Assembly: GCA_019694755.1 (NCBI GenBank) | Contig: JAIBBI010000024.1 | Coordinates: 1-47,626 of the forward strand | Direction of reading: 5' to 3' | DNA from: Gemmataceae bacterium | Lineage (GTDB): Bacteria; Planctomycetota; Planctomycetia; Gemmatales; Gemmataceae | Length of the DNA stretch: 47,626 nt | Shown: piece by piece, positions 3,171-21,465 of the stretch | How the letters are laid out: each line of letters begins with the position of its first letter | How positions within the stretch are numbered: position 1 is the first letter of the stretch | Made by a program: the position numbers and the translations under genes | The notes under the pieces: model-generated | The model's database searches: none | What the model saw: only the letters and a program-made list of their open reading frames with translations | What the model was told of the DNA's origin: nothing

Positions 3171-3333
3171 TGCCACGGGCTCGGAGCTGGGTGAGTCGAG
3201 GTCGAGTCACGAGTCATTAAACGACAATCGTGAATCGATAGCCATCGTTCGGAGCGGCCGTGGAAAAGTTCCGCCCGGCGATGGGAGTTCGTCGGGCGGG
3301 AGGTTGGTACGGGATCATTGACAGGATCGTCGC

Positions 3334-4824: not shown

Positions 4825-5934
4825 TCAGGCCGGTAGGGTCCGGGCTGACTCTTCGAACACGTCTCTTGTTTCGCGCACCCGGTGGGCATGCTCGGAGGCG
4901 AGGATTTCGCGAGCAAACCGGGAGCGTTTCCCGGTCGGTTGTAGCCCCGCGGCGGATGAATGCTCGAAGATCGGGCGAATGCGATACCGCTCACCCTTGC
5001 CCAAGCCCGCCACCTCGCTGATTGCAATCACCCGCCGGGAGCCGTCGCTCAGGCGGCTCACTTGCGCTACGACGTGAATCGCCGAGGCGACTTGCGTCCG
5101 CGCGACGTACACCGGCAGAGCGACATCGTTGATCAGGCTTAATGTCTCGAGGCGCACGAGCGCGAGCAGTGGCGAACTGGCGTGCACCGTGCTCAGCGCG
5201 CCGTCGTGTCCGCTGAGCATCGACTGGATCAGATCCAGCGCCTCGCCGCGCCGCACTTCGCCTACGAGGATGCGGTCCGGCCGCATGCGCAACGAATCCA
5301 CGAACAAGTCGCGGATGGTTACGCCGCCTTTCCCATCGGCGTCGGCCGGCTTGGCCTCCAGGTACACCGTGTGTGGCTGCTGCAGTCGCAACTCCGAGGA
5401 GTCTTCGATCACCACCACCCGCTCGTTATCGGGGATCTCGCCCGAGAGTGCGTTGAGCAGCGAGGTCTTGCCCGATCCGGTCCCGCCGGAGACGATCAGG
5501 TTGCGATGCGTCTTGACCATTAGCGCCAAGTACTCGGCCGCGACCGGCGTCGACGAGCCGATCGATTGCAGCCAGTCGAGCGTAACCGTCGACTTGCGGA
5601 ACTTCCGGATGGACACGCACACGCCGACTCGGCTCGTCGGGGGCAGGATCACATGCACGCGGAACTGCTCCGGCTCCGGTAGCCGGGCGTCCATGCTGTG
5701 GCGATCGTCGAAGTCCCGCCCCACATACTCGGCGAGGTTCCGCACGGCCGCCATCAGCACCTGCTCATCCGCGAACCGCCGATCGACTGGCTCCAGTTTG
5801 CCGCGGCGCTCGCAATACACCTGGTTGGCCCCATTGATCAACACCTCGGTCACCGACTCGTCGTCGTAGAGCAGGTCCGCGACCGGGGCGAAGAAATACC
5901 GCAGGGTAGAGCGATAAACATCGGCGCGGGTCAT
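4825..5934 (-). CDS. CpaF/TadA-family secretion ATPase (second, short copy)
   Basis: 369 aa. This is a VirB11/CpaF-type hexameric ATPase that would power pilin or substrate movement at the inner membrane. The N-terminal domain (about 10-125) leads into Walker A GGTGSGKTS (150-158), an Asp box (VVVIEDSSEL), Walker B RILVGEVRRGEA (221-232) and a His box (GHDGALSTVHASSP, about 242-255). It lacks the roughly 270-residue N-terminal extension found on the Tad-locus copy at 14866-16800. Its start codon overlaps the stop of the upstream zinc-ribbon gene as ATGA, which implies translational coupling. No TadB/TadC platform genes sit beside it, so it may borrow the platform encoded in the main Tad locus or serve a reduced system. 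Confidence 0.93.
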   Translation of the reverse strand: MTRADVYRSTLRYFFAPVADLLYDDESVTEVLINGANQVYCERRGKLEPVDRRFADEQVLMAAVRNLAEYVGRDFDDRHSMDARLPEPEQFRVHVILPPTSRVGVCVSIRKFRKSTVTLDWLQSIGSSTPVAAEYLALMVKTHRNLIVSGGTGSGKTSLLNALSGEIPDNERVVVIEDSSELRLQQPHTVYLEAKPADADGKGGVTIRDLFVDSLRMRPDRILVGEVRRGEALDLIQSMLSGHDGALSTVHASSPLLALVRLETLSLINDVALPVYVARTQVASAIHVVAQVSRLSDGSRRVIAISEVAGLGKGERYRIRPIFEHSSAAGLQPTGKRSRFAREILASEHAHRVRETRDVFEESARTLPA

Positions 5935-6511: not shown

Positions 6512-6527
6512 GTTCGAGGAGGTATGC

Positions 6528-7880
6528 ATGATCGTCGCCGCGCCACTTCGCGACTTGCTGATCCGGCTCGACGCCGTTTCGCCCGCACAATGGGACTCGG
6601 CTGCCGAATTGGCGGGCGACGACCACACGGCCACGCTGCGGATCATCGCGGCCCGGCGGGCCTGGTGGGCACCCGATGGCGTCGACTTCCCTGGCCTCAC
6701 CGCCTGGCAACTGCAGCAACTCGACAAACCCGATGCGGAACGCCGACTCCGCTGGGGTTCGTTGCTGGTGCTCGATCGCATCGGCGAAGGCGGCATGGGA
6801 GTCGTCTACCGCGGCTGGGATCTCGCCGAGCGCAGATGGGTCGCCATCAAGCGTCTGCGCAGCGACAGTAAAGAGAAGCGGGTTCGTTTCCGTCGCGAGG
6901 CCGACTTGCTCAGCCGCCTCGATCATCCGTCCATCGCCCGCTGCTTCGGACTTGTCCGCGTCGACGGGTTCGACGCGATTGTCATGGAGTACGTCCCGGG
7001 GCAGACGCTCTATTCGAAAGTCATGCGGTTGAAGAAAGCCGGGAAAGGCCTCGGTTGGCGACAGGTGGCCCGATGGGCCCTTGACGCCGTCGACGCTCTT
7101 GAACACCTGCATTCCCGCGAGATCGTTCACCGCGACGTCAAACCCGGCAACATCATGATTCGCCCTGACGGCCGGCTCAAGTTACTTGATCTCGGCCTCG
7201 CCAAGCTCACCCGGATCGACGACCCGATGGCACGCGGGGTCACGGTCCAGGGCCAGGTGCTGGGCACCTGCGACTACATGCCGCTCGAGCAATGGGACGA
7301 TGGCCGGGCCGTCACGGCCGCGGCCGACCTCTACGCCCTCGGGGCGACGCTGCATTTCGCGTTCACCGGCGAGCCGCCCCACCGCGCCGTGACTGGATAC
7401 CAGCTTCTGCAATCGCTGGGCCGCGGCGACACACCCACAGTCCGAGACCGCCGGCCCGACGTTTCCGCCGCATTCGACGAGCTATTGCAAACGCTCCTTG
7501 CCCGCGAGCCTTCTGAGCGCGGAACGGCCCGCGATCTGAAATGGCGGATCGGGCGTTTGCTCAACGAATCTTCGATATCGATCACGGCGAAGGGCGATGC
7601 ACCGACGGCCACACTGGCGGCGAAGCCGACGCAGTGCGACCAGAGTCCGCGGTGGATTGATCGGCTGGCCGACGGGCTGAGGCGGGCGGGGCGGGCATGG
7701 GACGATTGGCTGAGCCCCGCCAGCCCCGCAACTCGTGTCGCCCGCCGCGAGCGTTTCATCGTGCGCTGTCGACGGGGTGCGGATCACGTTCGCCGGTTGC
7801 CCTGGCGCGATGTCGGCCGGTGGCTCACAACCGGCGCGGCCCTTACGGCCGCCACCGTGGCCTGCCTGACTCGACTTTAG
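6528..7880 (+). CDS. Membrane-anchored Ser/Thr protein kinase next to the second CpaF cluster
   Basis: 450 aa. The ATG at 6528 follows GAGGAGGT and a promoter-like motif; upstream in-frame extension is unlikely. A roughly 75-residue N-terminal region precedes a complete kinase domain: GEGGMG loop (86-91), VAIK Lys108, HRDVKPGN with Asp203, and DLG (221-223) in place of DFG, a conservative change that keeps the metal-binding Asp. The activation segment has MPLEQ where planctomycete kinases usually have APEQ. A basic stretch and one C-terminal hydrophobic helix (about 430-450, LTTGAALTAATVACL) should anchor the kinase domain in the cytoplasm. It diverges from the zinc-ribbon/CpaF2 operon with a matching promoter motif, which suggests it phosphorylates components of that system or of the Tad proteins that carry FHA domains. 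Catalytic residues look intact. Confidence 0.95.
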   Translation: MIVAAPLRDLLIRLDAVSPAQWDSAAELAGDDHTATLRIIAARRAWWAPDGVDFPGLTAWQLQQLDKPDAERRLRWGSLLVLDRIGEGGMGVVYRGWDLAERRWVAIKRLRSDSKEKRVRFRREADLLSRLDHPSIARCFGLVRVDGFDAIVMEYVPGQTLYSKVMRLKKAGKGLGWRQVARWALDAVDALEHLHSREIVHRDVKPGNIMIRPDGRLKLLDLGLAKLTRIDDPMARGVTVQGQVLGTCDYMPLEQWDDGRAVTAAADLYALGATLHFAFTGEPPHRAVTGYQLLQSLGRGDTPTVRDRRPDVSAAFDELLQTLLAREPSERGTARDLKWRIGRLLNESSISITAKGDAPTATLAAKPTQCDQSPRWIDRLADGLRRAGRAWDDWLSPASPATRVARRERFIVRCRRGADHVRRLPWRDVGRWLTTGAALTAATVACLTRL

Positions 7881-8119: not shown

Positions 8120-8708
8120 ACTTCTCCAGGGCGGAGTTCCACAACCGGCTGATGGGTTTGGGCTCCTTGCCGAGCATCTCGGCAATCTCGGCGTTGGTGT
8201 GGCCGCCGTAGAACCGCAACTCGAACACTTGATACTCTTCGGGCGTGAGCAACTGCTCCACCTTCTCGTGAAACTCGGTCCAACTCAACAACTGGGCGGG
8301 CGACATCGTCCTGGCGACGGCCAACTCTTCGAGGATGACGCTGTCGCCGTTGTCCTCGACACCGCGGAGCTTGTCGCGGCGTGCCCGTCCGGCCAAGTCC
8401 CGCAGCATCATCCGAGTCTTGAAGGCGACGAAGCCGAAGAAGTCCTTCGGCGTGGTGGGGCGGACGCCACTGTTCCACGCTACCAGCAGCTTTTCGTAGA
8501 GTCGGTTCGCGATACTGGTCACGCCGTGACGGTTTTTCAGGCTGGGAAAGTCGTAGCCGAGGATCTTGGAGATGCGGTCGCGAATGGCGTCGTATGCCAG
8601 TGCGAAGACCTGATCCCAAGCCTCCCGGTCGCCCTGCCGGGCTTTCGCGAGCAATGCGGTGAGTTCGAAATTTTGCGAAATCGAAGTCGGCGGGGCGGGC
8701 TTCGGCAT
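8088..8708 (-). CDS. ECF-type RNA polymerase sigma factor at the head of the Tad locus
   Basis: 206 aa. Region 2 (about residues 15-110) includes WDQVFALAYDAIRDRI and FFGFVAFKTRMMLRDLAGRARR. Region 4 (about 145-200) has the helix-turn-helix LLTPEEYQVFELRFYGGHTNAEIAEMLG split as usual for planctomycete ECF factors. A charged linker separates the regions. No anti-sigma gene with a transmembrane segment lies next to it. It is transcribed divergently from the Tad operon, with 88 bases between the starts, and a copy of the conserved bipartite motif (8731-8758) faces the Tad side. It is therefore a candidate regulator of that motif, but nothing in the sequence proves it. Confidence 0.9.
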   Translation of the reverse strand: MPKPAPPTSISQNFELTALLAKARQGDREAWDQVFALAYDAIRDRISKILGYDFPSLKNRHGVTSIANRLYEKLLVAWNSGVRPTTPKDFFGFVAFKTRMMLRDLAGRARRDKLRGVEDNGDSVILEELAVARTMSPAQLLSWTEFHEKVEQLLTPEEYQVFELRFYGGHTNAEIAEMLGKEPKPISRLWNSALEKFNDTIEPLEK

Positions 8709-10222: not shown

Positions 10223-10414
10223 ATGACCACGACCATCCGCAAGTTCGCCCGCCGCAGCAAGGGCCTCGAAGCCCTCCAGGCCGTCCTCCTCGTCGGCGTC
10301 GCGTTCCTCATCTGCACCGGCTTGACCGCCGTGTGGAACAAGAGCAAGGCTGACGTCCAAAAGGGAGTCGACGATCTCCTTAAGAATGGTGCGGCCACGT
10401 CCCCCGCTCAGTGA
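10223..10414 (+). CDS. Flp-like type IVb pilin, major pilin candidate
   Basis: 63 aa, the usual Flp size. The ATG at 10223 follows AAGGGAGAT. A basic leader (residues 1-13) ends at Gly14, then comes LEALQAVLLVGVAFLICTGL, a hydrophobic helix, and a short charged tail. A Gly followed by a Glu-containing hydrophobic helix fits a class III prepilin signal processed by CpaA, encoded next door. The Glu is at +2 from the Gly, whereas canonical Flp pilins have it at +5, so the cleavage site is unusual. The same signal is used by the 353-aa fusion at 3334-4395. It would form the pilus fibre after export through the CpaF/TadB/TadC machine. Confidence 0.85.
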   Translation: MTTTIRKFARRSKGLEALQAVLLVGVAFLICTGLTAVWNKSKADVQKGVDDLLKNGAATSPAQ

Positions 10415-10497
10415 CCGTCGTTCGGAGGAATGAGACGCCTCGTCGCAATGATCGGCGGGGCGTCCCTTTCGACTTCACTGCTCTGGGAGACATCGCC

Positions 10498-11067
10498 ATG
10501 AACATACTCGACGCTGACACGCTCCGCGGTATGTATCGCCGGATGCTGGCCGTCCCCGCGAGTCGTCGCTGGGCGTTCGGACTGCTGATGCCGGGCTTTG
10601 CCGTCGCCATCGCCCTGCTTTGTGACGCCGACGACTCCCTGACGATGCGGTGCGTGTTGCTGCCGATGCTGACGATCGTCACGCTGACCGATCTCGCCTG
10701 GCGGCGGATTCCCAACTGGATCGTGGTGCCGTCAATGGCGTGGTCGGTCGGCATCGCAGCGGTTGCCGGGGTGCTGCCATCCGCACTTACCGGCGGCGCG
10801 ATCTGCTTTGCCGCCATGCTCGGGTTGCACCTGCTCTTCCGCGGCGGCGAGGGCGACGTGAAGCTCTTTGCCGTTATCGGAGCCGCGCTCGGCGGCTCGG
10901 CCGGGCTCGAAGCGATGCTCGCGGGCTACCTGCTGGCGGCGGCCTTCGCTGTCCTCCTGATCGCCGGCCGGCTAACGCGCCGTTCCACCGGCCCCGTGCT
11001 CGCGGGCCATTTGCCGATGGCGCCGTTCTTCAGCCTGGCAGTGCTGCTTACTGCGAGCGGAAACTGA
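10498..11067 (+). CDS. cpaA: Prepilin peptidase, CpaA/TadV family
   Basis: 189 aa, a multi-pass membrane aspartyl protease that removes pilin leader peptides. The two catalytic motifs are visible: TLTDLAWRRIPNW (first Asp in loop 1) and GGEGDVKL, the GxGD motif. At least five hydrophobic segments surround them. It lacks the N-methylation domain of PilD, which is normal for Tad systems. The ATG at 10498 follows GGGAGACATC. It is the third gene of the locus, and its substrates should be the short pilin, the TadE/TadG-like pseudopilins and possibly the 353-aa pilin fusion. Confidence 0.92.
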   Translation: MNILDADTLRGMYRRMLAVPASRRWAFGLLMPGFAVAIALLCDADDSLTMRCVLLPMLTIVTLTDLAWRRIPNWIVVPSMAWSVGIAAVAGVLPSALTGGAICFAAMLGLHLLFRGGEGDVKLFAVIGAALGGSAGLEAMLAGYLLAAAFAVLLIAGRLTRRSTGPVLAGHLPMAPFFSLAVLLTASGN

Positions 11068-11080
11068 GGGAGTCATACCA

Positions 11081-11242
11081 ATGAACCGCCGACCTGTTCG
11101 TCGCGCTCATGCGTCGTTCGACATGGTGCTCTGCACCGCGGCCCTGCTGCCGATCGCCGCCGGACTGTACGCCATCGTGAAGTCATGCCTGGCCGGCTAC
11201 TTTCAGATCCTTGGCGCCACCATCGGTTGGCCGCTGATGTGA
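11081..11242 (+). CDS. Very small membrane protein, 53 aa, in the Tad operon
   Basis: The ATG at 11081 has GAGGGAG upstream and sits 13 bases after the cpaA stop. The TGA at 11242 lies 17 bases before the next gene. The protein has a basic N-terminus (NRRPVRRAHAS) and then a hydrophobic stretch covering about residues 14-31, with a second hydrophobic C-terminal patch. The tight spacing on both sides and a good ribosome site argue for a real gene. It may be a minor pilin or an inner-membrane accessory; no family is recognised. Confidence 0.65.
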   Translation: MNRRPVRRAHASFDMVLCTAALLPIAAGLYAIVKSCLAGYFQILGATIGWPLM

Positions 11243-11259
11243 CTTACCGGAGGTATCCC

Positions 11260-11919
11260 ATGCGCCGCTATTTTCACTGGTCTGCCGAGCGAGGCGTTTC
11301 CTACTCGCTGCCGTTCGCGATGATCATTCCGTTCTACCTCACCTTCATGGCGATGACGGTGGAGATCGCGTTTCTACTGCAGGCGAAGCTCGGGGCGATG
11401 GCGGCGGCGCAGTCGGCCGTGCGGGCCGCTAAGGTCTGGCAGTCGGCGCAGCCGGCCACGCTCGCCGAGGCGCGGATTCGCCAGGCCGCATTCACGACAC
11501 TTGCGGCGTTCGTCGGCGGGCGGCAGAGCGAAATCAACGCCGCCGGGCCCATTCCTTCCGACGCCGAGGCGGGGGCAGACGACTACGCCGCCGCCAGCAA
11601 CCTCGCGCTGCAATCCCGCGCGGTGGACGCGGAGTTTCTCCGCCGCAAGTACCGCCACGGCGCGGCGCGGACGGAGCTGCAACTGGAAATGCCGAAGTCC
11701 GACCCGCGCGGAATGATCACAGTCACAATCAAGTTCCGCGCACCGCTGTACGTACCCCTGGCGTCGCGGTTTCTGGATCCCGACAGGCGGGCGCCCTTCG
11801 AGTATCCGCTGACGGCGTCGGCCACGCTGCCCGCCGACGGTCCGGTGAGCCGGGATGGCAAGCTGGGAATTGACTACGGATCCGACTTACTAGAGCGCTC
11901 ACGGGAGACCTCGCCATGA
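11260..11919 (+). CDS. TadE-like pseudopilin
   Basis: 219 aa. The ATG at 11260 follows CCGGAGGT. The N-terminus has a short basic leader and a hydrophobic helix (YSLPFAMIIPFYLTFMAMTVEI, about residues 15-36 in two runs), then an amphipathic helix rich in Ala/Gln. This matches TadE/TadF pseudopilins, with ERG just before the helix as a possible CpaA site. The remainder is a mixed extracytoplasmic domain. It overlaps the next gene by 4 bases (ATGA), so the two are translationally coupled. The family assignment rests on the N-terminal pattern and locus position. Confidence 0.75.
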   Translation: MRRYFHWSAERGVSYSLPFAMIIPFYLTFMAMTVEIAFLLQAKLGAMAAAQSAVRAAKVWQSAQPATLAEARIRQAAFTTLAAFVGGRQSEINAAGPIPSDAEAGADDYAAASNLALQSRAVDAEFLRRKYRHGAARTELQLEMPKSDPRGMITVTIKFRAPLYVPLASRFLDPDRRAPFEYPLTASATLPADGPVSRDGKLGIDYGSDLLERSRETSP

Positions 11920-13442
11920 TCCTTCAATCACCTCGACGATCGGGCAACATTCTGCTGATCTCGATCTTTCCATTTTTGGCGCTGCTCATGCTGATCGCGT
12001 TGCAGGTCAACACGGCTCGCCTGGTTACCAGCCGGGTCATGGCGCAACACGCGGCCGACGCCGCCGCCCATGCAGCCGCACTGGAGATGGCCCGGGCCAT
12101 GAACGCCATCACGGCGTTGCAGCACTTAATTGGCCAGCTCAATGCCCTGGGCGCGTTGGTCATGAGCTTCGGCGGGGTAGAGCTGGAAGAAGGCAAGATC
12201 TTCCCTCTCAACAACGGCTCCCTTCGACGTGCCTACGCCGACGCGCTCAGGTATGGCACGACCGTCCACCCGGTTGTCGGCTACGAGCTCCTCAGAGAAT
12301 CGAAAAGCGCGTCCGGCGCATCGATCGGCCGGTCGCGGCGCCGACTGCAAGAGGTCATGACCTGGGCCTACCGGGTCCACGCGGCCGGGGGCGTGCTCGC
12401 GACCGAGCCCGTGCTTTACAAGTTCCGCGGAGTCGGGATCCGCCTGGTCAATGCCGCCGTCACCATAGAGAAAAACGTCGTCTTCGAGTGGAAGGTGCTC
12501 GCGACGATGGAACAATTGGCCAAGCACGTGTTCCTGCCCCTCAAGCACATCAGCAACCCGACGATCATACCGTACCTGCACGACTACTCGATCCGATGGG
12601 CGGAGGACGCGCCGGTACGGGCGGCGGCCGCCGCCCGCGAAGTCGCTCGGACGTACGGTGATATCGACAGCACCCTTTTCCCGGCGGTCGACGGTCGGCC
12701 CGCGCTGCGGTTGCCGATCGAACACGAGCCGCAGCTTTTTCACAACAGCCCCTACCTGGAGCAGTCGCAGATGGTCCGGGCGACGACGCCCTGGGTGCAA
12801 TACTATCGACCGCCCATCCTCAGCTTCAGTCGCCAGATTCTGCCGCTCTCGCGGTTTGCCCGGTTCTATCACGAGGAATCAAACGGGTTCACGCTGAAGA
12901 TGGCCGTCTGGAAGTCGAAGGAACTGAACCTCAAAAATGTGATCCCCGGCGGCAGGCCGACCCGGTTGTTCCGACTGATCGGCACCGACCCCGGAGTCGC
13001 CGACAAGGGCAGGGAGATATGGAACGTCCAGGCCGGCTCGGCCCGGGCCGACGAACTGTTCTGCATCCTTGGCTTCGCCCGGCACGCGCCGGTCAGCGTG
13101 ATGGGGTATCCGGCCTTCCCGCAGACACAACCGGACGGCATCGCCGGCTCGGCTCAGGCCATGATCTACAACGCCAATCCGCAAAATGGCGCGACACGGA
13201 GCCGCTGGCAGCCCGTCGCGGGCTGGGACACGCTCAACTGGGAAAATGAGGTCCCGGAATTCCAATGGGGCAAGGACTACGGCAAGAACGAGAACGTGCC
13301 GCAGCCGCGAGTCTTCCTCAACTGGCAGGTGAAACTCGTGCCGATGACCCGACTGAAGGACGCGGCCGGTACGCAGAGCAGTCAGCTCAACCGCATCCTG
13401 GGGCGGACGATCGCCGACCGCGGCATTGCCAACCTGCACTGA
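11916..13442 (+). CDS. TadG-like pilus assembly protein
   Basis: 508 aa. The N-terminus (RRSGNILLISIFPFLALLMLIALQVNTARL) and the following Ala-rich helix (HAADAAAHAAALEMARAMNA) are typical of the TadG/Flp assembly N-terminal region, where the long helix follows the membrane anchor. The remaining roughly 420 residues are extracytoplasmic and unassigned; no von Willebrand factor A MIDAS motif of the kind some TadG proteins have is visible. It starts inside the stop of the TadE-like gene. It is inferred to act as a minor pilin or priming component. Confidence 0.75.
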   Translation: MILQSPRRSGNILLISIFPFLALLMLIALQVNTARLVTSRVMAQHAADAAAHAAALEMARAMNAITALQHLIGQLNALGALVMSFGGVELEEGKIFPLNNGSLRRAYADALRYGTTVHPVVGYELLRESKSASGASIGRSRRRLQEVMTWAYRVHAAGGVLATEPVLYKFRGVGIRLVNAAVTIEKNVVFEWKVLATMEQLAKHVFLPLKHISNPTIIPYLHDYSIRWAEDAPVRAAAAAREVARTYGDIDSTLFPAVDGRPALRLPIEHEPQLFHNSPYLEQSQMVRATTPWVQYYRPPILSFSRQILPLSRFARFYHEESNGFTLKMAVWKSKELNLKNVIPGGRPTRLFRLIGTDPGVADKGREIWNVQAGSARADELFCILGFARHAPVSVMGYPAFPQTQPDGIAGSAQAMIYNANPQNGATRSRWQPVAGWDTLNWENEVPEFQWGKDYGKNENVPQPRVFLNWQVKLVPMTRLKDAAGTQSSQLNRILGRTIADRGIANLH

Positions 13443-13458
13443 TAACGGAGGCCCTTCC

Positions 13459-14178
13459 ATGTTAATACGACAGCAACCACCGCGCCGGGCCGCCGCCGCC
13501 CTCGAGTTTGTTCTCGTGTTCCCACTACTGATGACCTTGACCGTCACCGGATGGTGGGCCGCGCATCTCGGCTTCGTAAAACTCGGCACACTCATCGACG
13601 CGCAATCCCAGGCGTGGACAAACCGAGTGCAGGCGGAGCCCGGAACGCCCTTCGACATCCGACAGCCGTCGCTCGACAGCCAGGTGAAAGTCGAGATCCG
13701 CAGGGAATCAACCATTGCCCCGCCGTTCAAGCTCGTGGGGCCGATGGTGGCTGTCACCGAGGAAATCAACTGCGAAAGGACCTGGGACGCGACCGATTTT
13801 CCATTTCCCCGACTGCCTGAGCGGATCCACCCGCACACCCTTCAGCTCGTGGCCTTCGCGGAGTTGATCCCGGTGATTGCGAGGTTCGCCCCAGGCATGG
13901 CAGGGTACGCGGCATTGGACCCGTGGAGTAATCCCGAGCTGGTCCGCTACGTGCCGGAGGGACTCATTTTCCTGGTTGGAAGGGTCCAGGCCCTCGTCAC
14001 AATCGCAGGATCGACGCCCGCGCTCGCGGCCGCCATTGGCCCACTTGCGGCGGCCGAGGCAAAGGCGATTGCTTCGCTCAACTTCGGGCTGGCCGCCCAT
14101 TACGCCGACGAGATCCGTGTCGTCGTCACGGCATTGCGCGCCGTCCCCGACCTCATCCGGGCCGGCAGGCCGGAATAG
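13459..14178 (+). CDS. TadE-family pseudopilin
   Basis: 239 aa. The ATG at 13459 follows AACGGAGG, 16 bases after the upstream stop. Residues 9-30 read RRAAAALEFVLVFPLLMTLTVT, the classical TadE motif: Arg-rich leader, Ala/Ala cleavage context, then a Glu-Phe-containing hydrophobic helix ending in FPLL. The rest is a mixed domain with an Ala-rich helical C-terminus. It is the last gene before a new promoter-like motif at 14208. Confidence 0.85.
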   Translation: MLIRQQPPRRAAAALEFVLVFPLLMTLTVTGWWAAHLGFVKLGTLIDAQSQAWTNRVQAEPGTPFDIRQPSLDSQVKVEIRRESTIAPPFKLVGPMVAVTEEINCERTWDATDFPFPRLPERIHPHTLQLVAFAELIPVIARFAPGMAGYAALDPWSNPELVRYVPEGLIFLVGRVQALVTIAGSTPALAAAIGPLAAAEAKAIASLNFGLAAHYADEIRVVVTALRAVPDLIRAGRPE

Positions 14179-14207
14179 GTACCCGGCGAGTTGTCGTCCT
14201 TCTTACT

Positions 14208-14235
14208 GTCCGAACGTCCGTGACTCACGGCTGGG
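14208..14235 (+). promoter_or_regulatory. Promoter-like motif GTCCGAAC-N13-GGCTGGG
   Basis: GTCCGAAC (14208-14215) and GGCTGGG (14229-14235) with a 13-base spacer, 29 bases before the GTG start of the CpaB gene. It divides the Tad locus into a pilin/pseudopilin unit and a machinery unit. Confidence 0.75.
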
Positions 14236-14264
14236 ATTCTCGTGAACCACGAGGAGGCCGGATC

Positions 14265-14855
14265 GTGAATGCGTATCGCTGGTTAATTCCGTTGGGACTC
14301 GGACTCGTTGCGGGCGTATCGCACTACTTCGTCCTCAAAGGCGCGACCCGCACCGTTGCCGTGCTCGTGGCAGCCGACAACCTCAAGCCCGGCGAGTTGC
14401 TCACCGAAGATCGCGCGACCATTATCACGATTCGGCTCGACGGACCGCCTCAATACCTCGATTCGCACATCCCGGTCGATGGCCGCCACTCCTTTTTTGA
14501 ATTTCCACTTCGACGGGCGATCGGCAAAGGCGAGCCAATTCTGCGGGCGGATGTTGCTGTCACCGCTCAGCGCATCGACCTGCGCGACGGTGAGTCGCCG
14601 GTCCGGCTTGCCGTGGGACACAGCAGCAGGCTGCCGGAGAAACTTGATGTCGGCATGTCGCTGAAGCTACGGCACTCCCACTCCGGCGTTCATGGTCCGT
14701 ATCGTCTTCTCGGCATCACGGGGTCGGAGGTTGCCTGTACCGTGATCCTCGCCGTGCCGGACGGCGACCCGCTCGTCACCAAGTTGCCCGACGAGCGAAA
14801 GCAGTTCGCCGCCGGCATTGCCTCCGTCGAAATCGCGAAACCTCGTCAGCGCTAG
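14265..14855 (+). CDS. cpaB: CpaB/RcpC-like SAF-domain protein
   Basis: 196 aa from a GTG at 14265, chosen because GAGGAGGCCG sits 8 bases upstream and the promoter-like motif ends 29 bases before it. An N-terminal transmembrane helix (about residues 5-25) is followed by a SAF domain (about 30-100): VAVLVAADNLKPGELLTEDRA and a later RRAIGKGEPILRADV, the typical pattern of CpaB. The C-terminal part is a beta-rich domain. CpaB works in the periplasm with the secretin, which is not encoded in this window. Confidence 0.85.
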   Translation: MNAYRWLIPLGLGLVAGVSHYFVLKGATRTVAVLVAADNLKPGELLTEDRATIITIRLDGPPQYLDSHIPVDGRHSFFEFPLRRAIGKGEPILRADVAVTAQRIDLRDGESPVRLAVGHSSRLPEKLDVGMSLKLRHSHSGVHGPYRLLGITGSEVACTVILAVPDGDPLVTKLPDERKQFAAGIASVEIAKPRQR

Positions 14856-14865
14856 GAGCGCTTCC

Positions 14866-16800
14866 ATGCGACTGGAATACGTCAACACGATCACGGGCAA
14901 GTCCGGCGCACGCGATCTGCCACCGATGCTCAACCCCGTATGGATCGGCAACCATCCCGGCAGCCATCTGGTCCTCGACAGTCCCTACCTGGGGCCCGAG
15001 ACCGGCGTCTTCGACAACGACGTATCCGGGGGCGACGGCTGGCGATTCTGGAATCGCAACGGCAAGCCGATCAAGGTCGGCGACGCCCTGCTGACAGACC
15101 GCGATCAGTTCGTTCGGCTGACGCAGCCCCGGGTGCAGATCGAGTGCTGGCCGTACGTCGTCACCGCCCTGCTGACTCCCGAGGAATGGGTCACGGAGGC
15201 CGACGGCGCGCGCCGACTGGACCGGGCCTGCGCGGATGTCGTGCGACAGGTTCACCGCGAGTTGGTCGAGCTGCACCCCAATGATCCGGCCGACCGCAAC
15301 GAGTGGCTTAAGGACGGATACATTCACGACCTCGAGAGCCAGATCCTGGAGTTGGTAGCCCGTCGACCGGACTTCCCGGGCGACGATTTGGGTCACACGG
15401 AGCTTGGCGACCATCTCGCCGGGGTAGCGGTGCGTTCCGCACTGGTCCGGCAACTGCTCGCACGGACGGAAACGGGCACGGCGGCACTTCGGGCGACCGA
15501 CTCCTGGGGCCGGATGCGGATCGCCCTCCCGGAAGCCGAGGCCGACCTAGACCGGCTGGCGGCCGACGCGGCGCGAGCCCTGGGGCTCGACTCGCACGCC
15601 GACATCTCCCGCCAAATGACAAGCGTCGACGACGAGTTCTGGGCGTACTGGAATACGCTGCTCACCCGCCGCGAGTCACTGCCTCCTCAACTGTGCCGGT
15701 ATCTTGCACTGCGGCGTGTGAAGGAGGAGATCAAGGACATATGGTTTGGCTTCGGTCCGCTCGAAGAGTTGCTGAAGGACCCGTGCGTCAATGAGATCAT
15801 GATCGTCGATGCGGACCACATTTTTGTTGAGAAGTCCGGGCACATCGAGAACTCCGGCCGGCGGTTCCTCACCGATCCGCTCACTGTCATCCAGCGGATC
15901 ATGGCCCGGGCGAATCGGCAGATCAACACCGCCCAACCGATGGCCGATGCGCGGATGCCCGACGGTAGTCGGGTCAACGCCGTTATCGAGCCACTCGCCC
16001 TGAAAGGGCCTTGCCTGACCATTCGCCGGTTCCCGACGCACCGCGTCACGATCGAGGATCTGGTGCAACGGCTCGACTCGCTCACGCCGGCGGCGAGCGA
16101 GTTTCTCCGCGTCGCGGTTGCCAACCGGCGGAACATCATCATCGCTGGCGGGACCGGCACAGGCAAGACGACGATGCTCAACTGCCTAAGCGCGTTCATC
16201 CCCGATAAGGAGCGAATCGTCACCATCGAGGACACGGCCGAATTGCAGATCCAGAAAGAGCACGTCGTCACGCTGCAGGGCCGGCAGAGCAACTCGGAGG
16301 GGGCCGGCGCGGTCAGCATCCGGGATCTCGTGAAGAACGCACTCCGCATGCGGCCGGACCGGATCGTCGTCGGCGAGTGTCGCGGCGGCGAGGCGATCGA
16401 CATGCTCCAGGCGATGAACACCGGCCACGACGGTTCGATGACCACGCTGCACGCCAACACGCCCGCGGGTGTGATCCGCCGGCTCGAAGTACTCGTGCAG
16501 CAGAACACGGACAGCACGCTCCCGGTAGAGTCGATCCATGCCCAGATCGCCTCAGCTGTGGATTTGGTTGTCCAACTGGGCATCGTCCTCGGCTCAGGAA
16601 CGAAACGGAAGGTGGTGACGGAGATCACCGAGGTCGGTGTCACCGGCACGGGGCGGCTGCGGCTCGTGCCGCTGTTTCGCCGGGACGAGGGCGAGCCGCT
16701 TCGCCCGACCGGCTGCCTGCCGTCGTTCCTGCCCGAACTGATCGCCACCGGGCTGGTACGCGATGCGGTCGACTTCGTCCGCGCTGTCGAAGAGACGTGA
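14866..16800 (+). CDS. cpaF: CpaF/TadA ATPase with an N-terminal FHA-like domain
   Basis: 644 aa, much longer than the 370-450 aa typical of CpaF. About residues 20-95 resemble a forkhead-associated fold: WIGNHPGSHLVL, then RFWNRNGKPIKVGDALLT. A helical region (100-290) leads to the VirB11-type ATPase core: Walker A GGTGTGKTT (428-436), Asp box IVTIEDTAEL, Walker B RIVVGECRGGEA (from 499), and His box GHDGSMTTLHANTP. It energises pilus assembly through TadB and TadC, encoded just downstream. The FHA-like segment lacks a clear SxxH pair, so binding of phosphothreonine is uncertain; the ATPase call is firm. Confidence 0.95.
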   Translation: MRLEYVNTITGKSGARDLPPMLNPVWIGNHPGSHLVLDSPYLGPETGVFDNDVSGGDGWRFWNRNGKPIKVGDALLTDRDQFVRLTQPRVQIECWPYVVTALLTPEEWVTEADGARRLDRACADVVRQVHRELVELHPNDPADRNEWLKDGYIHDLESQILELVARRPDFPGDDLGHTELGDHLAGVAVRSALVRQLLARTETGTAALRATDSWGRMRIALPEAEADLDRLAADAARALGLDSHADISRQMTSVDDEFWAYWNTLLTRRESLPPQLCRYLALRRVKEEIKDIWFGFGPLEELLKDPCVNEIMIVDADHIFVEKSGHIENSGRRFLTDPLTVIQRIMARANRQINTAQPMADARMPDGSRVNAVIEPLALKGPCLTIRRFPTHRVTIEDLVQRLDSLTPAASEFLRVAVANRRNIIIAGGTGTGKTTMLNCLSAFIPDKERIVTIEDTAELQIQKEHVVTLQGRQSNSEGAGAVSIRDLVKNALRMRPDRIVVGECRGGEAIDMLQAMNTGHDGSMTTLHANTPAGVIRRLEVLVQQNTDSTLPVESIHAQIASAVDLVVQLGIVLGSGTKRKVVTEITEVGVTGTGRLRLVPLFRRDEGEPLRPTGCLPSFLPELIATGLVRDAVDFVRAVEET

Positions 16801-16807
16801 GGATACC

Positions 16808-17659
16808 ATGGCGGATCAAATGCTCCTGAGCCTCGGATCGGCAGCGACGGCGGGCGCGGTGGCGGCCGGGTACGAACGGGTCGCCGACCTAACCGATTGG
16901 CTCAATCGGCGGACCGGCGACGGAATCGCCAGGCGAATGAAGTCCGTCGGAATGGACGTAACCGTGCTACCGGCCTGGCTGCGGTTGTGGCGCGGGCTGA
17001 CGCTGGCGACATTTCTCGGGTGGTGGTTCTTTGCCCAGTCGCCGCCCCTGGCGGTGAGTCTCGCGTTTCTCGTCCAGCAACTCGGGCCGCTCTGGTTCGA
17101 CGTGCGCGTGGAAGCCCGGCGGAAGCTCGTCAACGAGCAGACCGCCAACGCGGCCCGCAAGCTCGCCGGCCAGGTCCGCGTCGGTATGCCGTTCGGCGAA
17201 GCATTGCAAGCCGTGGCCGCCGAATCACCCGCGCCTCTGGGACTATCGCTCCGCCGGGCGACGCAACAACTCGACCAGGGCAAGTCGGTCCGCGACGCCC
17301 TCGCCGACCTGCGGCAGAATCTGCGGACGGATGCGATCGCCCTGCTGACCTCCGCATTACTCGTCGCTTCCGAGAGCGGCGGCAAGCTGGCGGATCTGCT
17401 CGACAAGATCAGCCTCAGCCTCGACGAGTTTCAGCGGGTGCAACGCAAGCGCGAGTCGGACACGGCATCGGGTCGGCTCATGGTGCGGATCATGGCCGTG
17501 TTTCCCGTGGGGTTCTTCGCCTTCTTTTACGGCACCGCACCGGACCAGTTCGACAAGGTGCTCACCACACTCCCGGGGCAACTGGTGCTCGCGACTGCCA
17601 TCGTACTCACTTACGTGAGCATCCGGTGGGCCCGCCACATCCTGGCGCGCAAGGGGTGA
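16808..17659 (+). CDS. tadB: TadB inner-membrane platform protein
   Basis: 283 aa. The ATG at 16808 is 7 bases after the cpaF stop, with GTGAGG upstream. It contains a T2SS-F domain (about 105-250) with ARKLAGQVRVGMPFGEALQAVA and the paired helices LTSALLVASESGGKLADLLDKIS. Hydrophobic segments lie near 55-85 and at the C-terminus (ILTYVSIRWARHIL). TadB and TadC form the inner-membrane platform that CpaF rotates or drives. Gene order cpaF-tadB-tadC is canonical. Confidence 0.92.
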   Translation: MADQMLLSLGSAATAGAVAAGYERVADLTDWLNRRTGDGIARRMKSVGMDVTVLPAWLRLWRGLTLATFLGWWFFAQSPPLAVSLAFLVQQLGPLWFDVRVEARRKLVNEQTANAARKLAGQVRVGMPFGEALQAVAAESPAPLGLSLRRATQQLDQGKSVRDALADLRQNLRTDAIALLTSALLVASESGGKLADLLDKISLSLDEFQRVQRKRESDTASGRLMVRIMAVFPVGFFAFFYGTAPDQFDKVLTTLPGQLVLATAIVLTYVSIRWARHILARKG

Positions 17660-17665
17660 ACCGTC

Positions 17666-18556
17666 ATGCACGACCAATTGCTACTGATGACAGGCTTGAC
17701 CACGGCCGCGAGCCTCGGGTCGGCAGCGTGGCAGGTGATCGGCCCCGAGCGATTGCCGGCCGGGCTCACAGATTCGGAACGTCGACGCCGGACCGCGCTG
17801 GCAGACGAGTCGTTCGTATTCCGCTGGATGGGAGAGCCGGCCCGCTGGCTCGCCGCGCTGGCACCGCGCGTCGCCTCGCCGGCCGCTTTCACTCGCCTCT
17901 CGCACGACCTCGAGTTGCTCGAGATCCGGCACTGGCGCGGTGACGAGTTTGCGGCCGTCAAATCCCTCGAGGCCATCCCCGTGGTCGGGATGATCGCGCT
18001 GTTGGTCGGGTACTTCGCGGGGCCAACGGTCACGGCCATCGCCATCGGCCTGGGGATCGTCGCCGTGCCGTTCGTGCTGATGCATGATCTCCGCTCGCGG
18101 GCCGGCACTTATGTCGCGAATGTCCGCCTCCGACTGCCGTACGTCCTGGACCTGATGACGTTGGTGCTTGAAGCCGGGGCGGGCACACTGCCGGCCTGCC
18201 TCGAGCGGGCAGCCGAGGAATGTGAGGATCATCCGCTGGGTCTGGAACTGCAACGGGTGCTGACAGGATTGAAGCAGGGAGCCTCGCAGGCAGACATGCT
18301 TCGCGAGATGGATCGTCGACTGGCCGACCCGGATGTCCGCGAACTGGTATCAACGCTGACCACGGCCGAGGAGCGAGGCATCCCGCTGAAGGAGGCATTG
18401 CGAAGTCAGGCCGACCGCATGCGCCGCCGGGAAGTGCAGTGGCTGGAGAAGTCGGCCGAGGAAGCCAAGGTCCACATTACTTGGCCCGCCCTGCTGGTGA
18501 TGGTGGCGTGCCTGCTTATCATCGCCGCGCCGTGGGTGATCATTCTGGTGGTGTGA
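17666..18556 (+). CDS. tadC: TadC inner-membrane platform protein
   Basis: 296 aa, starting 6 bases after tadB. It has a T2SS-F domain with LRLPYVLDLMTLVLEAGAGTLPACLERAAE and ELVSTLTTAEERGIPLKEALRSQADRMR, the standard TadC signature. Hydrophobic pairs lie near 105-140 and at the C-terminal end (LLVMVACLLIIAAPWVIILVV). It partners TadB. Confidence 0.92.
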   Translation: MHDQLLLMTGLTTAASLGSAAWQVIGPERLPAGLTDSERRRRTALADESFVFRWMGEPARWLAALAPRVASPAAFTRLSHDLELLEIRHWRGDEFAAVKSLEAIPVVGMIALLVGYFAGPTVTAIAIGLGIVAVPFVLMHDLRSRAGTYVANVRLRLPYVLDLMTLVLEAGAGTLPACLERAAEECEDHPLGLELQRVLTGLKQGASQADMLREMDRRLADPDVRELVSTLTTAEERGIPLKEALRSQADRMRRREVQWLEKSAEEAKVHITWPALLVMVACLLIIAAPWVIILVV

Positions 18557-18572
18557 TCGAAGGAGAAGTGAC

Positions 18573-19313
18573 ATGGCGGCCTGTATCGAGATTGTTCGCG
18601 GACCGGATGCCGGGTGGAAGTACCGCATGACGGGCGGCGACGTCCGCATCGGCCGGGGCGCGGGGCACGCGATCCGCATCCCCGATCCCGCGTGGCCCAC
18701 GGGATCGCTCCACATTCAACACCGGCAGGGCGGGTACGTGGTCACCAATCACCTGCCTCACCCGGTCTATCTCGACGAGCGTCCACTCGCACCGGAGCAG
18801 CAGCAGACGTGGTACGCCGGGGGGCTGCTGCAACCCACGGCGTCGACTCTGTTGCGACTAGTGGTGTCGGAGGGGGAGGCGGAATCGAGCACGGCGTCAG
18901 GTCCGGTGGTGGCCGAGGGGCCTACCGTGAAGCGGTCGTCGATCGCGCTCAACGCAGTGCTCGCCGGTTTGATACTCCTGGGGCTACCGCTCGTCTGGTG
19001 GGCGATGCAACCGGGCCCGAAGGTCGATCCGGTCGCGCGGATGCACCGGGCAGTCGTGGCCCTCGATCAGGCCATCGCCGGCCACCCGGCCGACTCGCCG
19101 CAGTACCGGCTCGTGAAAATCCTGCGCGAAGCCGTGCTCGCCGAGTCTCAACGCGACTCGGCAACGGCTTATGCACTGTATGAGCAGGCCCGGCAGCAGG
19201 TCCGCCTGGCCCGCACTGGCGGCGGAATCGTCGACCAGTTCTGGGATCAACTGACCAATGAAATCGCCCGGCGGTGCCAGGTGCTCGCCCCACCGGCCAG
19301 GCGACAGGAGTAA
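18573..19313 (+). CDS. FHA-domain membrane protein of the Tad operon
   Basis: 246 aa; GAAGGAGAAG precedes the ATG. An FHA domain spans about residues 1-97: DVRIGRGAGHAIRIPD, then GSLHIQHRQGGYVVTNHLPHPVYLDERPL. The usual SxxH is replaced by SLHIQH, so phosphopeptide binding may be altered. A transmembrane helix (about 124-145) follows, then a charged helical region (about 150-245) with a TPR-like look (RLVKILREAVLAESQRDSAT). FHA domains bind phosphothreonine, so the cytoplasmic N-terminus probably reads kinase output on the pilus machine. It sits between TadC and the double pseudokinase. Confidence 0.85.
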   Translation: MAACIEIVRGPDAGWKYRMTGGDVRIGRGAGHAIRIPDPAWPTGSLHIQHRQGGYVVTNHLPHPVYLDERPLAPEQQQTWYAGGLLQPTASTLLRLVVSEGEAESSTASGPVVAEGPTVKRSSIALNAVLAGLILLGLPLVWWAMQPGPKVDPVARMHRAVVALDQAIAGHPADSPQYRLVKILREAVLAESQRDSATAYALYEQARQQVRLARTGGGIVDQFWDQLTNEIARRCQVLAPPARRQE

Positions 19314-19320
19314 CTCCACC

Positions 19321-21360
19321 ATGCCCCTTCTCAAGCGATACGACATCCGCACCAGTGGCGACTGGTCCGTCTGGCGGGCCCAGGATGACGTCACCCGGCA
19401 GTATCACCTCGTCAAGCAAGTGGCCGAAGGTTCGCCGTATCGCGCGCAACTGCTCCGCCGGCTCGAGCACGAGACGGCATTCCTCGGCCAATTCACGCAT
19501 GCTCATCTGCTGCGGCCGGTGCGGATCGAGCCGACCGAGCATCGTGCGATTTTCGAAGACGTTCAGTGCTCGTTGGCCCAGTATGTCCGTGGCCAGGGTC
19601 CGCTCACGCCGGCCCAAGTCGGCCAGGTACTGCTCCAGGCGTCCGAGGCGTTGTCCGCGCTGCATGCTCGCAAGAAGGGGCACGGGTGCGTCAACCTGCA
19701 CTCGCTCTTCGTCGGGCCTGAGGGTGACGTGAAATTCGCCGACTTCCTGGGCTACGAGTTTGACACCTCGCCGCAGATCCCCGTGCCCGACCCGGAACTT
19801 GTATATCAGGCTCCCGAGGTGATCGACTCGGGGCTAGGCCGGATCGGGCCGTCGGCGGATCTTTACTGCCTCGGCTATGCCACGCTCGAACTGCTCCTGG
19901 GCGATCGCTTCGAGCAACTCTTCGACTTGCCGCCGGGCGTGAACTGGCTGGCTTGGCATGCCGACCCGCGTAAGCAACTCGTCGACTGGAAGGCGTCACT
20001 CGGGCATGTCTCGGCCGGGCTTGTCGATCTGATCGAGGGCTTGATCGTCAAGGCGCCCGGCGAGCGGGCGTATCACACGGCCGCGGAGTTCACGGCCGCG
20101 CTGAAACGCTCGCGACTGGCGCAGTCGCTCGCACTGCCGTTCTACCGGCATGTCGAGCCCGCGAGCAAGCCGCAGCCGCGCTATCGCCCGGGCCCGGTGA
20201 AGCCGCGCCGCCCCGGCGGACGCGGGCCGTACCTGACGCTGACTCCGCTGGACTCCAGCCTGCCCACGCGGTCGTTCTCGCCCGGCAAGGCGGTCCTCGT
20301 GGGCCGGGCGGACAGTTGCCAACTCATTCCGCACGGCCCCGGGGTCTCGGCCAAGCACGCACTTCTCAATTGTCACGACGACGGCATCTGGCGGGCCTAC
20401 GATCTCGCCTCCACGAGCGGCCTCTTTGTCAACGGCGTGCCCCGTCCCAGGACCCGCCTGCGACCCGGACACGTGCTCGGATTCGGAGGCGTCGGCTATC
20501 GTGTCAGCCTGCGAACCACATCGCGCCGTGGAGTCAGCAAGTTTCAAATCCGCGAGTTACTCCACGAGGGCGCCAATGGCCGGCTGTTTCGCGCCGATTG
20601 GGTCGCCCACGACGGTCGGGCCGTCGCCCTCCGCTTCCTGCCCATTGCGTTCGAAAACGACGAAGTCGAGATGCGGCGATTCCTTCGCGGCATCCCGGCC
20701 GCATCGACCCTCCGCCATCCCAACCTCGTCCGCCTGTACCGCGCGGGCGTCAGCCGGATGGGAGCCGAGCGGGTGTGGTATCTCGCCATGGAGTACTGTC
20801 CCGGCCGAAGCTTGCGCGACCGAATGCAGACGCACGAACCACTACCTGTGAGCGATCTCGTCCGCCTGGCCCGCGACCTGGCGTCCGCGATCACCGCGCT
20901 GGGCGCGAACGGGTGGGTGCATCGGAACATCAACCCGTCGTGCGTACTGCTCGCCGAAGACGGTACGGCGAAGCTCGGCGACTTCGGCGCGTATCGTCCG
21001 TCCGTCGCGGAAACCGATCGCGCGGTGACTGTGGTCGCGGGGCCCCGCGGCGATCTGGTGTATCAGGCGCCCGAGTGCGTGGCCGGCGAGGGCGAGCCGA
21101 CCGCCGCGGCCGATGTCTACAGCCTCGGGGCGACACTCTTCGAGGCGGCGACCGGCCAGCCGTCGTTCGACAAACGACTGAGTTACCCGGAGTTGTGCAA
21201 GGCTGTGTGCGAGAGCCCGACGCCAGATCCGAAAGCCCTTCGGCCCGACCTGCCGACCCCCATGCGCGATGTGATCATGACGGCAATGGCTCGGCTGCCG
21301 ATGCAGCGATTCGCGACGGCCAACGCGCTGCTCGATGCCGTGAGGAGTTGCGAAATGTGA
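19321..21360 (+). CDS. Pseudokinase-FHA-pseudokinase scaffold protein of the Tad operon
   Basis: 679 aa, ATG at 19321. Three domains are visible. The first kinase fold (about 5-265) keeps a candidate Lys32 (VKQV) and an APE motif (164-166), but HRD is replaced by HGC (121-123) and DFG by DFL (141-143). The FHA domain (about 322-398) has VLVGR, SAKH (Ser343, His346) and VNG (Asn371), the residues that bind phosphothreonine. The second kinase fold (about 405-675) has the VAIK Lys replaced by Arg438 (VALRF), HRD by HRN (Asn536), intact DFG (554-556) and APE (583-585). Neither lobe should phosphorylate efficiently, so it is probably a scaffold or allosteric adaptor that docks on a phosphorylated partner via FHA. 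No transmembrane segment is seen. The catalytic losses are read directly; the role is inferred. Confidence 0.9.
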   Translation: MPLLKRYDIRTSGDWSVWRAQDDVTRQYHLVKQVAEGSPYRAQLLRRLEHETAFLGQFTHAHLLRPVRIEPTEHRAIFEDVQCSLAQYVRGQGPLTPAQVGQVLLQASEALSALHARKKGHGCVNLHSLFVGPEGDVKFADFLGYEFDTSPQIPVPDPELVYQAPEVIDSGLGRIGPSADLYCLGYATLELLLGDRFEQLFDLPPGVNWLAWHADPRKQLVDWKASLGHVSAGLVDLIEGLIVKAPGERAYHTAAEFTAALKRSRLAQSLALPFYRHVEPASKPQPRYRPGPVKPRRPGGRGPYLTLTPLDSSLPTRSFSPGKAVLVGRADSCQLIPHGPGVSAKHALLNCHDDGIWRAYDLASTSGLFVNGVPRPRTRLRPGHVLGFGGVGYRVSLRTTSRRGVSKFQIRELLHEGANGRLFRADWVAHDGRAVALRFLPIAFENDEVEMRRFLRGIPAASTLRHPNLVRLYRAGVSRMGAERVWYLAMEYCPGRSLRDRMQTHEPLPVSDLVRLARDLASAITALGANGWVHRNINPSCVLLAEDGTAKLGDFGAYRPSVAETDRAVTVVAGPRGDLVYQAPECVAGEGEPTAAADVYSLGATLFEAATGQPSFDKRLSYPELCKAVCESPTPDPKALRPDLPTPMRDVIMTAMARLPMQRFATANALLDAVRSCEM

Positions 21361-21465
21361 CACAGTTGGGCGACGCGATCTGGCCGGAGAAAACTGAATT
21401 CTCGCTTGTTCATCGATTTTCGGGCGAGTAAGGTAATGGGACTCATCCGACTCGGAGTCCGTCCT

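Follow-up and report, generated by a model that had tools for sequence, protein, structure and literature searches.

The usual role of the FHA fold is the recognition of phosphate marks, and an arginine, a serine and an asparagine form the phosphopeptide pocket of the FHA domains that bind phosphothreonine. Tad pilus motors perform both extension and retraction with a single ATPase. An N-terminal FHA domain on the Tad motor has been described in the class III CpaF proteins (FHA-IDR-3HB-NTD-CAD), for example in Achromobacter xylosoxidans; these proteins are mostly betaproteobacterial, and their FHA domain is described as phosphothreonine-binding (PMC12019362). The Tad-like locus of the Myxococcus Kil system likewise encodes KilF, an FHA-ATPase fusion, together with further FHA proteins, for which a signalling role has been proposed; the main text of that report does not use the word "kinase", and its available parts describe neither a string of genes with a pseudokinase nor a loss of the pocket (PMC8460266). 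FHA-bearing CpaF proteins are already known, and an FHA domain on this motor is no novelty among Tad systems; a first-pass annotation of the present locus had placed phospho-control of the pilus motor outside classical Tad systems.

A comparable set of parts is found in type VIIb secretion, in which EssC/YukB and EssB/YukC likewise combine a motor FHA that lacks the pocket with a pseudokinase (PMC9600267, PMC4925161). The YukB FHA is reported to lack the phospho-binding residues, and the YukB FHA region copurifies with the pseudokinase domain of YukC, a contact seen in E. coli, in which, according to that report, no typical eukaryotic-like kinase is known (PMC9600267); the EssC FHA lacks these residues as well (PMC4925161). 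Point mutants of the PrgH FHA show normal secretion (PMC3635987). Type VIIb differs in its FtsK-like membrane ATPase, its tandem FHA domains and its transmembrane pseudokinase, and it is an unrelated secretion system; the comparison made here covers the parts list and the pocket loss alone. Searches of open-licence papers, together with passages of PMC2754498 and PMC11032199, yielded no account of a kinase/FHA module at the Tad loci of Planctomycetota.

The window, the whole stretch of 47,626 nucleotides analysed here, contains a Tad locus, which is assigned as such because of the proteins encoded at 10223..14855. The features are as follows.

4825..5934, minus strand: second CpaF-like ATPase (CpaF2), T2SSE 16-293, without an FHA domain
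6522..7880, plus strand: Ser/Thr kinase with intact catalytic residues (K, HRD, N, DLG)
10223..14855, plus strand: pilin-like, prepilin peptidase and TadE/TadG-like genes and a CpaB-like SAF protein
14866..16800, plus strand: CpaF/TadA-type motor ATPase, 644 aa (FHA fold 1-106, helical part 110-267, T2SSE core 296-571)
14866..15183, plus strand: FHA-fold domain of the ATPase, residues 1-106 (model comparison; Pfam FHA through the family)
16808..17659, plus strand: TadB-like platform protein (T2SSF, Pfam 8.4e-19)
17666..18556, plus strand: TadC-like platform protein (T2SSF, Pfam 1e-13)
18573..19313, plus strand: FHA-TM protein (FHA fold 1-102, hydrophobic helix approximately 123-144, helical C-terminal part 153-238)
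19321..21360, plus strand: double pseudokinase with a central FHA domain (Pfam, alignment, tree)

The motor ATPase starts with the ATG at 14866, which is preceded by TAGGAG, and its gene stands in tandem on one strand with those of TadB (16808), TadC (17666) and the FHA-TM protein (18573). The core matches PF00437 in Pfam (3.2e-57) and carries the Walker A motif GGTGTGKT, which identifies the protein as a CpaF/TadA motor; the closest solved structures to its model among the matches listed are CpaF 8rjf/8rkd/9e24, and the score against TIGR03819 in NCBIfam is 295.5 bits, below the cut-off of 373. An N-terminal extension of approximately 270 residues had been proposed for this ATPase. The FHA region is indeed additional; however, model residues 120-638 align to residues 80-498 of 8rkd, and thus only residues 1 to approximately 119 are extra relative to the ordered part of Caulobacter CpaF, whereas the remainder of the claimed extension takes in the normal CpaF helical bundle, somewhat enlarged. 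A search for tandem repeats led nowhere.

The FHA-like segment itself is real: the profiles built from the family, a profile match in the PDB and the model comparison all agree. The ATPase of the window has no match to Pfam FHA even at E<=10; PF00498 matches 3 of 10 close homologues and 23 of the 27 members of a wider family set, and the family profile matches the EmbR FHA in the PDB with an E value of 0.0014. In the AlphaFold model, residues 1-106 adopt the FHA beta-sandwich fold (10-residue block means of approximately 87-94, except at 51-60, where the mean falls to 64, and at 101-110, where it is 73) and match solved FHA domains with Z scores of 11.4-13.0 and rmsd values of 2.2-3.3 Å, among them MDC1 3umz (Z 13.0, 2.7 Å/99), EmbR 2fez (Z 12.7) and Chk2 1gxc (Z 11.5). 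The first-pass annotation had named the absence of any FHA match in profile or structure searches as grounds for abandoning its reading; a clear structural match was obtained. Despite the failed single-sequence Pfam search, these concordant results rule out an assignment by chance. The best 50 Foldseek matches of the ATPase are only ATPases with no FHA chain, a plasmid search with its N-terminus gave no match, and a weak match in genome G040 is an unrelated open reading frame without an ATPase.

In the model, helix 111-136 begins within a few residues of the FHA domain, and runs with pLDDT<50 ahead of the core occur only at 54-56 and 204-210. In class III CpaF, the FHA domain is joined through an intrinsically disordered region (PMC12019362), whereas the window ATPase has no long disordered linker; it also differs in the loss of the pocket and in the kinase-like gene that follows.

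In the alignment, N29, G43 and T46 of the ATPase occupy the positions of R, S and H/Q in canonical relatives, and G43 and E45 lie in the former phosphate loop; with a two-residue shift of the alignment, the pocket asparagine may be kept as N65-G66. The arginine, serine and histidine of the phosphothreonine pocket are lost in this alignment, and the domain does not qualify by residue content as a phosphothreonine binder. The window ATPase and the five relatives closest to it have G[NHQ] in place of GR, G in place of S and A/T in place of H. Among other planctomycete CpaF proteins, the pocket is complete in most: R, S and N are all present in 83 of 119 distinct FHA-CpaF copies, counted after removal of 41 duplicate proteins, with 81 copies aligned after the truncated L138 and the second open reading frame of L124 were left out. 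The third position of the former phosphate loop is Glu in 17 of the 36 incomplete pockets versus 1 of the 83 complete ones. By the tree and the residue states, a whole clade of the ATPase lacks the pocket residues. The complete pocket would be the ancestral form; because the CpaF tree is unrooted, we infer this direction (loss, not gain).

The gene after tadC encodes, as had been proposed, an FHA-TM protein, with an FHA domain, one membrane helix and a helical domain supported by profiles and the model. In Pfam, the window protein matches only Yop-YscD_cpl (E 0.045), and its 18-member family matches Yop-YscD_cpl in 17 and FHA in 9 cases; profile matches include the FHA domains of GarA and EmbR (approximately 1e-7 to 1e-5) and an Arabidopsis FHA (1.8e-8). 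The model has a pLDDT of 88, its FHA domain gives matches with Z scores up to 14.9, and its C-terminal part (153-244) consists only of helices. The pocket arginine is kept (R28), whereas the serine column holds P (with T/G/S close by) and the asparagine column H/P; S and N occur together in none of 37 aligned FHA-TM proteins (L134, L137 and L138 were left out of this count). By alignment, this domain lacks the pocket S and N and, like the motor FHA, falls short of a phosphothreonine-binding site.

In the double pseudokinase, the motifs are K, HGC and DFL in the first domain and R, HRN and DFG in the second, and the catalytic Asp is replaced by C and N, respectively. The first domain groups in the tree with the operon kinases (support 100) as a diverged member of their clade; the sister clade has catalytically complete versions of this family. 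Its central FHA has a complete pocket in the alignment (GR, S, H, N), the only one among the three FHA domains of the window, and the expectation that three Tad-operon proteins could bind phosphothreonine is reduced to this single candidate.

An intact kinase had also been placed approximately 1.3 kb from the start of the Tad operon. The kinase at 6522 does contain all residues of an active Ser/Thr kinase (VAIK Lys, HRD Asp, Asn and DFG Asp; its motifs are K, HRDVKPGN and DLG), but the distance is wrong: its start lies 0.6 kb from the second ATPase (5934), and its stop codon is separated by 0.9 kb from the rightward gene that follows (8797) and by 2.3 kb from the pilin gene (10223). At each of the five window-type loci with a visible flank, an active-looking orthologue adjoins the Tad locus, which indicates that the linkage is conserved here. 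Outside the window genome, orthologues adjoin the second ATPase in four genomes, and we rejected the kinase as an accidental neighbour because an order-wide search placed its orthologues beside CpaF2. The second ATPase, which lacks an FHA domain, is conserved at the edge of window-type loci. In a sixth clade member (G035, L233), no Tad gene was detected in the 12.3 kb contig.

The string FHA-CpaF, TadB, TadC, FHA-TM and kinase-like protein recurs in the class. In the sister clade, 33 of the 83 complete-pocket CpaF copies adjoin a kinase with all catalytic residues, and three copies without the serine (GKQQ) keep an intact kinase. The AEEA-type loci L054, L055, L057 and L058 encode a pocket-less FHA-CpaF and an FHA-TM protein with no kinase-like gene thereafter, which counts against the docking explanation given below; three of the four, those with retrieved flanks, have kinase-like genes beside CpaF2 (L243, L254, L248). 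In the count of kinase states, a copy was scored as lacking a kinase if its own strand had none in the 5.5 kb downstream, and several of these loci have a kinase-like gene near CpaF2. The split of pocket states against kinase states was rejected as proof, because it traces to a single change in the tree and independent pairs gave no support.

The explanation that we favor, to which we give about an even chance, is a planctomycetal Tad locus with a built-in kinase/FHA module, in a lineage whose motor FHA has changed from reading phosphothreonine to docking. Because the phosphate-holding residues are lost, both the motor and FHA-TM domains more likely dock partners such as the adjacent dead kinase, and the motor FHA of this lineage probably docks independently of phosphorylation, as it does in type VIIb secretion; the docking is argued from likeness to an unrelated ATPase family, and the pocket assignment from the alignment. 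Without phosphate, the FHA domains of CpaF and FHA-TM would bind either the pseudokinase or one another, and this docking could keep the hexameric motor at the TadB/TadC platform or gate it there. Any input from the 6522 kinase would enter through the pseudokinase FHA or through residues outside the motor FHA.

Some phospho-dependence is possible, because the pseudokinase pocket of the window is complete and active kinases are linked. A mixed control, in which the motor and membrane FHA domains are scaffolds and a phospho-switch operates through the pseudokinase FHA and the 6522 kinase, would accommodate both observations and the adjoining kinase at five of five visible loci. However, the pseudokinase pocket lacks R or S in all six relatives, including G025, G044, G047 and G204, which have a linked kinase, and this explanation appears unlikely. 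The original proposal, that all three FHA domains read phosphothreonine from the linked kinase and thereby switch the pilus motor, is consistent with the confirmed FHA folds on CpaF and FHA-TM, the intact kinase kept beside five loci, the complete pseudokinase pocket of the window and the 33 sister-clade loci that pair a full pocket with an intact kinase. It is nevertheless improbable given the residues missing from the ATPase (R, S, H) and FHA-TM (S, N) and the broken pseudokinase pockets of the relatives; moreover, the genome has 108 Pkinase matches, approximately one per 52 kb, so kinases lie near many genes. H30, R60 and R64 of the ATPase FHA are invariant in the six-member window clade and might bind a phospho-residue or another anion non-canonically, but the former phosphate loop has lost R, S and H and gained the invariant Glu45, which makes such binding very doubtful. 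That the motor FHA is a functionless relic would agree with the pocket loss in the whole clade but is scarcely credible, because its mean identity among the six ATPases is 59.8%, above the 45.5% of the following helical part (core, 75.2%), and 35 of its 106 positions are invariant, including G43 and E45.

We tentatively suggest, as a possibility well short of an even chance, that Tad loci throughout Planctomycetota have a built-in kinase/FHA control module and that its phosphothreonine-competent FHA moves between components. One clade would have this FHA on CpaF, together with an intact operon kinase; lineages elsewhere in the phylum would have it on FHA-TM, together with an intact HRD kinase; and the window would have it on the pseudokinase alone. 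A phospho-dependent kinase-reader pair would then have become a phosphorylation-independent FHA-pseudokinase dock on the motor within one operon family, which, if true, provides an evolutionary series for the origin of such docks as in type VIIb secretion. The locus bears on Tad motor regulation in that kinases and FHA domains form part of the Tad locus in a large phylum; natural variants that have lost the phosphate pocket and kinase catalysis offer a direct test of whether a pilus-motor FHA is a switch or a scaffold, in parallel to the FHA-pseudokinase contact shown experimentally in another secretion system.

The FHA-TM protein, with its predicted topology, also resembles the SctD proteins of type III secretion (YscD/PrgH/PscD), which have a degenerate cytoplasmic FHA and a single transmembrane helix. 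SctD proteins contain periplasmic ring-building domains, whereas the FHA-TM model has a helical C-terminal part in their place and none of these domains. PscD 6uid matches the FHA-TM model with a Z score of 12.2.

The window comes from a Gemmataceae planctomycete, and the region contains four tandem genes, as follows.

14866-16800, CpaF/TadA-type ATPase, first gene
16808-17659, TadB, second gene
17666-18556, TadC, third gene
18573-19313, short FHA protein with a membrane helix (FHA-TM), fourth gene

Genes for pilin-like, prepilin peptidase, TadE/TadG-like and CpaB-like proteins lie upstream of the ATPase gene, and a double kinase-like protein (the double pseudokinase, 19321-21360, +) is encoded downstream of FHA-TM; together with the four-gene string, these genes identify the region as a Tad locus. 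Directly 3' of the pseudokinase, a 2556-residue subtilase with Ig-like, PKD and dockerin domains (21406-29076, +) may be a product of the locus that is secreted or surface-located. A 353-residue protein with a Flp-pilin-like N-terminus and no Pfam match (3334-4395, -) adjoins CpaF2, a second CpaF-like ATPase that lacks an FHA domain. A gene that we take to be sigma-factor-like is present in the Tad neighbourhoods of the window (8088-8708, -) and of genomes G025 and G044 (L020 16637-17305 and L021 8441-9082).

The first-pass annotation had proposed an FHA-like segment within a ~270-residue N-terminal extension of the ATPase. The N-terminus of the window protein alone has no Pfam FHA match even at E≤10, but PF00498 is matched by 3 of 10 homologues and by 23 of 27 members of a second family set. 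Among 102 genomes from the order, 10 encode homologues of the N-terminal 266 residues, a count that includes the window's genome (11 listed matches, one excluded as an unrelated ORF). A profile built from ten sequences of this region (A2) has matches at E≤0.001 in 101 of the 397 genomes from the class; the weakest of these span only profile positions ~10-125 and fall mostly in other ORFs, as would be the case for a profile that also recognises other FHA domains. The AlphaFold model of residues 1-106 has ten strands, mostly at high confidence, and aligns to the FHA domains of MDC1, Rad53, EmbR, GarA and Chk2 with Z of 11.4-13.0. The indirect evidence of family matches and model clearly predicts an FHA domain, as had been proposed. 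The extension is real but shorter than supposed: residues 120-638 of the model align to residues 80-498 of Caulobacter CpaF, so the addition amounts to only about 119 N-terminal residues.

The proposed FHA-TM protein after tadC is borne out by its model, in which residues 1-102 form an FHA fold and are followed by a single hydrophobic helix and a C-terminal region of helices. FHA domains match this model at Z up to 14.9; among the matching structures is the type III secretion (T3SS) protein PscD (Z 12.2). In this family, the T3SS YscD cytoplasmic model is matched by 17 of 18 members and FHA by 9 of 18. In the SRRH clade (L103:11846-13159, L071, L092, L108, L112 and L116), a zinc-ribbon-like CxxC domain replaces the FHA domain, and both a membrane helix and a similar C-terminal region are retained.

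Known FHA domains hold phosphothreonine through R, S and N, in agreement with the canonical copies in the present sequence alignments, from which pocket residues were assigned. In the window ATPase, GR is replaced by G-N29, S by G43 and H by T46, and the Asn assignment is ambiguous (its alignment column has K67, with N65-G66 immediately preceding); R, S and H are also absent from all five nearest relatives. FHA-TM retains R28 and has lost S and N, which occur together in none of 37 aligned proteins. The pocket of the pseudokinase FHA is complete in the window, and R or S is absent in six of six relatives. Binding of phosphothreonine by three Tad proteins had been suggested; judged by these residues, the pseudokinase FHA is the one candidate reader of the three, and not a conserved one, whereas the ATPase and FHA-TM pockets are incomplete.

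The pocketless ATPase FHA is still maintained. Among six window-clade members, its mean identity is 59.8%, compared with 45.5% over the 164 residues that follow it; 35 of its 106 positions are invariant, and G43 and E45 are fixed in the former phosphate loop. Glu occupies the third loop position in 17 of 36 copies without a complete pocket versus 1 of 83 with one. This pattern looks like conversion of the domain rather than decay.

In the wider family, 119 distinct FHA-CpaF copies remain after removal of duplicates from 160. The FHA domain is shared with CpaF proteins of other planctomycetes, but the pocket that the window copy has lost is complete (R, S and N) in 83 of the 119. In a tree of 81 copies, every R+S+N copy falls within one 54-row clade (support 100), which also includes some copies that have lost Ser. 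A profile search with this clade left 80 of 91 loci, and almost every named contig among them bears the label of Planctomycetota or of one of its families; one is labelled Nealsonbacteria and one only "bacterium". Four genomes (G204, G265, G304 and G382) carry one copy inside and one outside the clade, so their Tad systems are paralogous or separately acquired. The string FHA-CpaF, TadB, TadC, FHA-TM and kinase-like protein is frequent both inside and outside the clade.

Downstream kinases were scored within 5.5 kb of each copy for four catalytic residues. All four are present in the kinase of 33 of the 83 complete-pocket copies; 24 have no kinase within this distance, 25 are truncated at contig ends, and in one the contig stops within a kinase, leaving a fragment. 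For the 17 copies that lack R, or have R but neither S nor N, a kinase-like gene follows in nine, each of which lacks catalytic residues (six have none, two are cut). Of the 19 copies that retain R and N and lack S, 3 have an intact kinase, 12 have none and 4 are cut. Since one evolutionary change accounts for the split, the apparent relation between pocket and kinase state is a correlation without independent repeats. In the kinase tree, domain 1 of the window pseudokinase lies in the operon-kinase clade (support 100), and domain 2 falls among ordinary kinases. One canonical-clade operon kinase (L103:13163-16633) carries a caspase-like domain (Peptidase_C14, 5.5e-7) after the kinase domain.

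An intact kinase near the Tad operon (6522-7880, +) had also been noted. The window genome (5.64 Mb) has 108 Pkinase matches, so a neighbouring kinase alone is a weak argument, and what counts is orthology across genomes rather than proximity; the same genome has 18 FHA matches and only 4 PP2C matches. Orthologues of this kinase (support 99) adjoin CpaF2 in G025, G044, G047 and G204, which places it beside all five window-type loci with a visible flank, the window included (the clade has eight rows; the flanks of G076, G078 and G079 are cut), and K, HRD, N and D are present in all five. The contig of the sixth kinase-clade member, G035, contains no Tad gene. A second intact HRD kinase (3-3206, -), fused to an nSTAND NTPase and cut by the contig end, has relatives (support 99) in the Tad neighbourhoods L252, L070 and L130.

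The evidence best supports a reading in which planctomycetal Tad loci have an integral kinase/FHA module and the motor FHA and FHA-TM of the window have turned into docks; we infer by analogy that docking would take place within the Tad locus itself. Type VIIb secretion has the same parts, a pocketless motor FHA and a pseudokinase: PMC9600267 describes co-purification of the YukC pseudokinase domain with the pocketless FHA region of the YukB ATPase, a contact that the authors conclude from E. coli tests to be phosphorylation-independent. In the T3SS, FHA point mutants of PrgH show normal secretion, according to PMC3635987. FHA on CpaF-type ATPases is already described, as class III CpaF in PMC12019362 and as KilF in PMC8460266. 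As far as the literature searched shows, three features are new: the motor FHA has lost its pocket, a kinase or pseudokinase partner recurs, and the competent pocket shifts between components.

Elsewhere in the phylum, a search of 294 genomes gives matches in 26 at E≤1e-10, some over the FHA part only. All seven loci fetched from outside the class contain an FHA-CpaF, and six have an HRD kinase in the fetched stretch. The CpaF FHA of these loci retains R and H, but six of the seven no longer have Ser, and an FHA protein with a complete pocket directly follows TadC in three.
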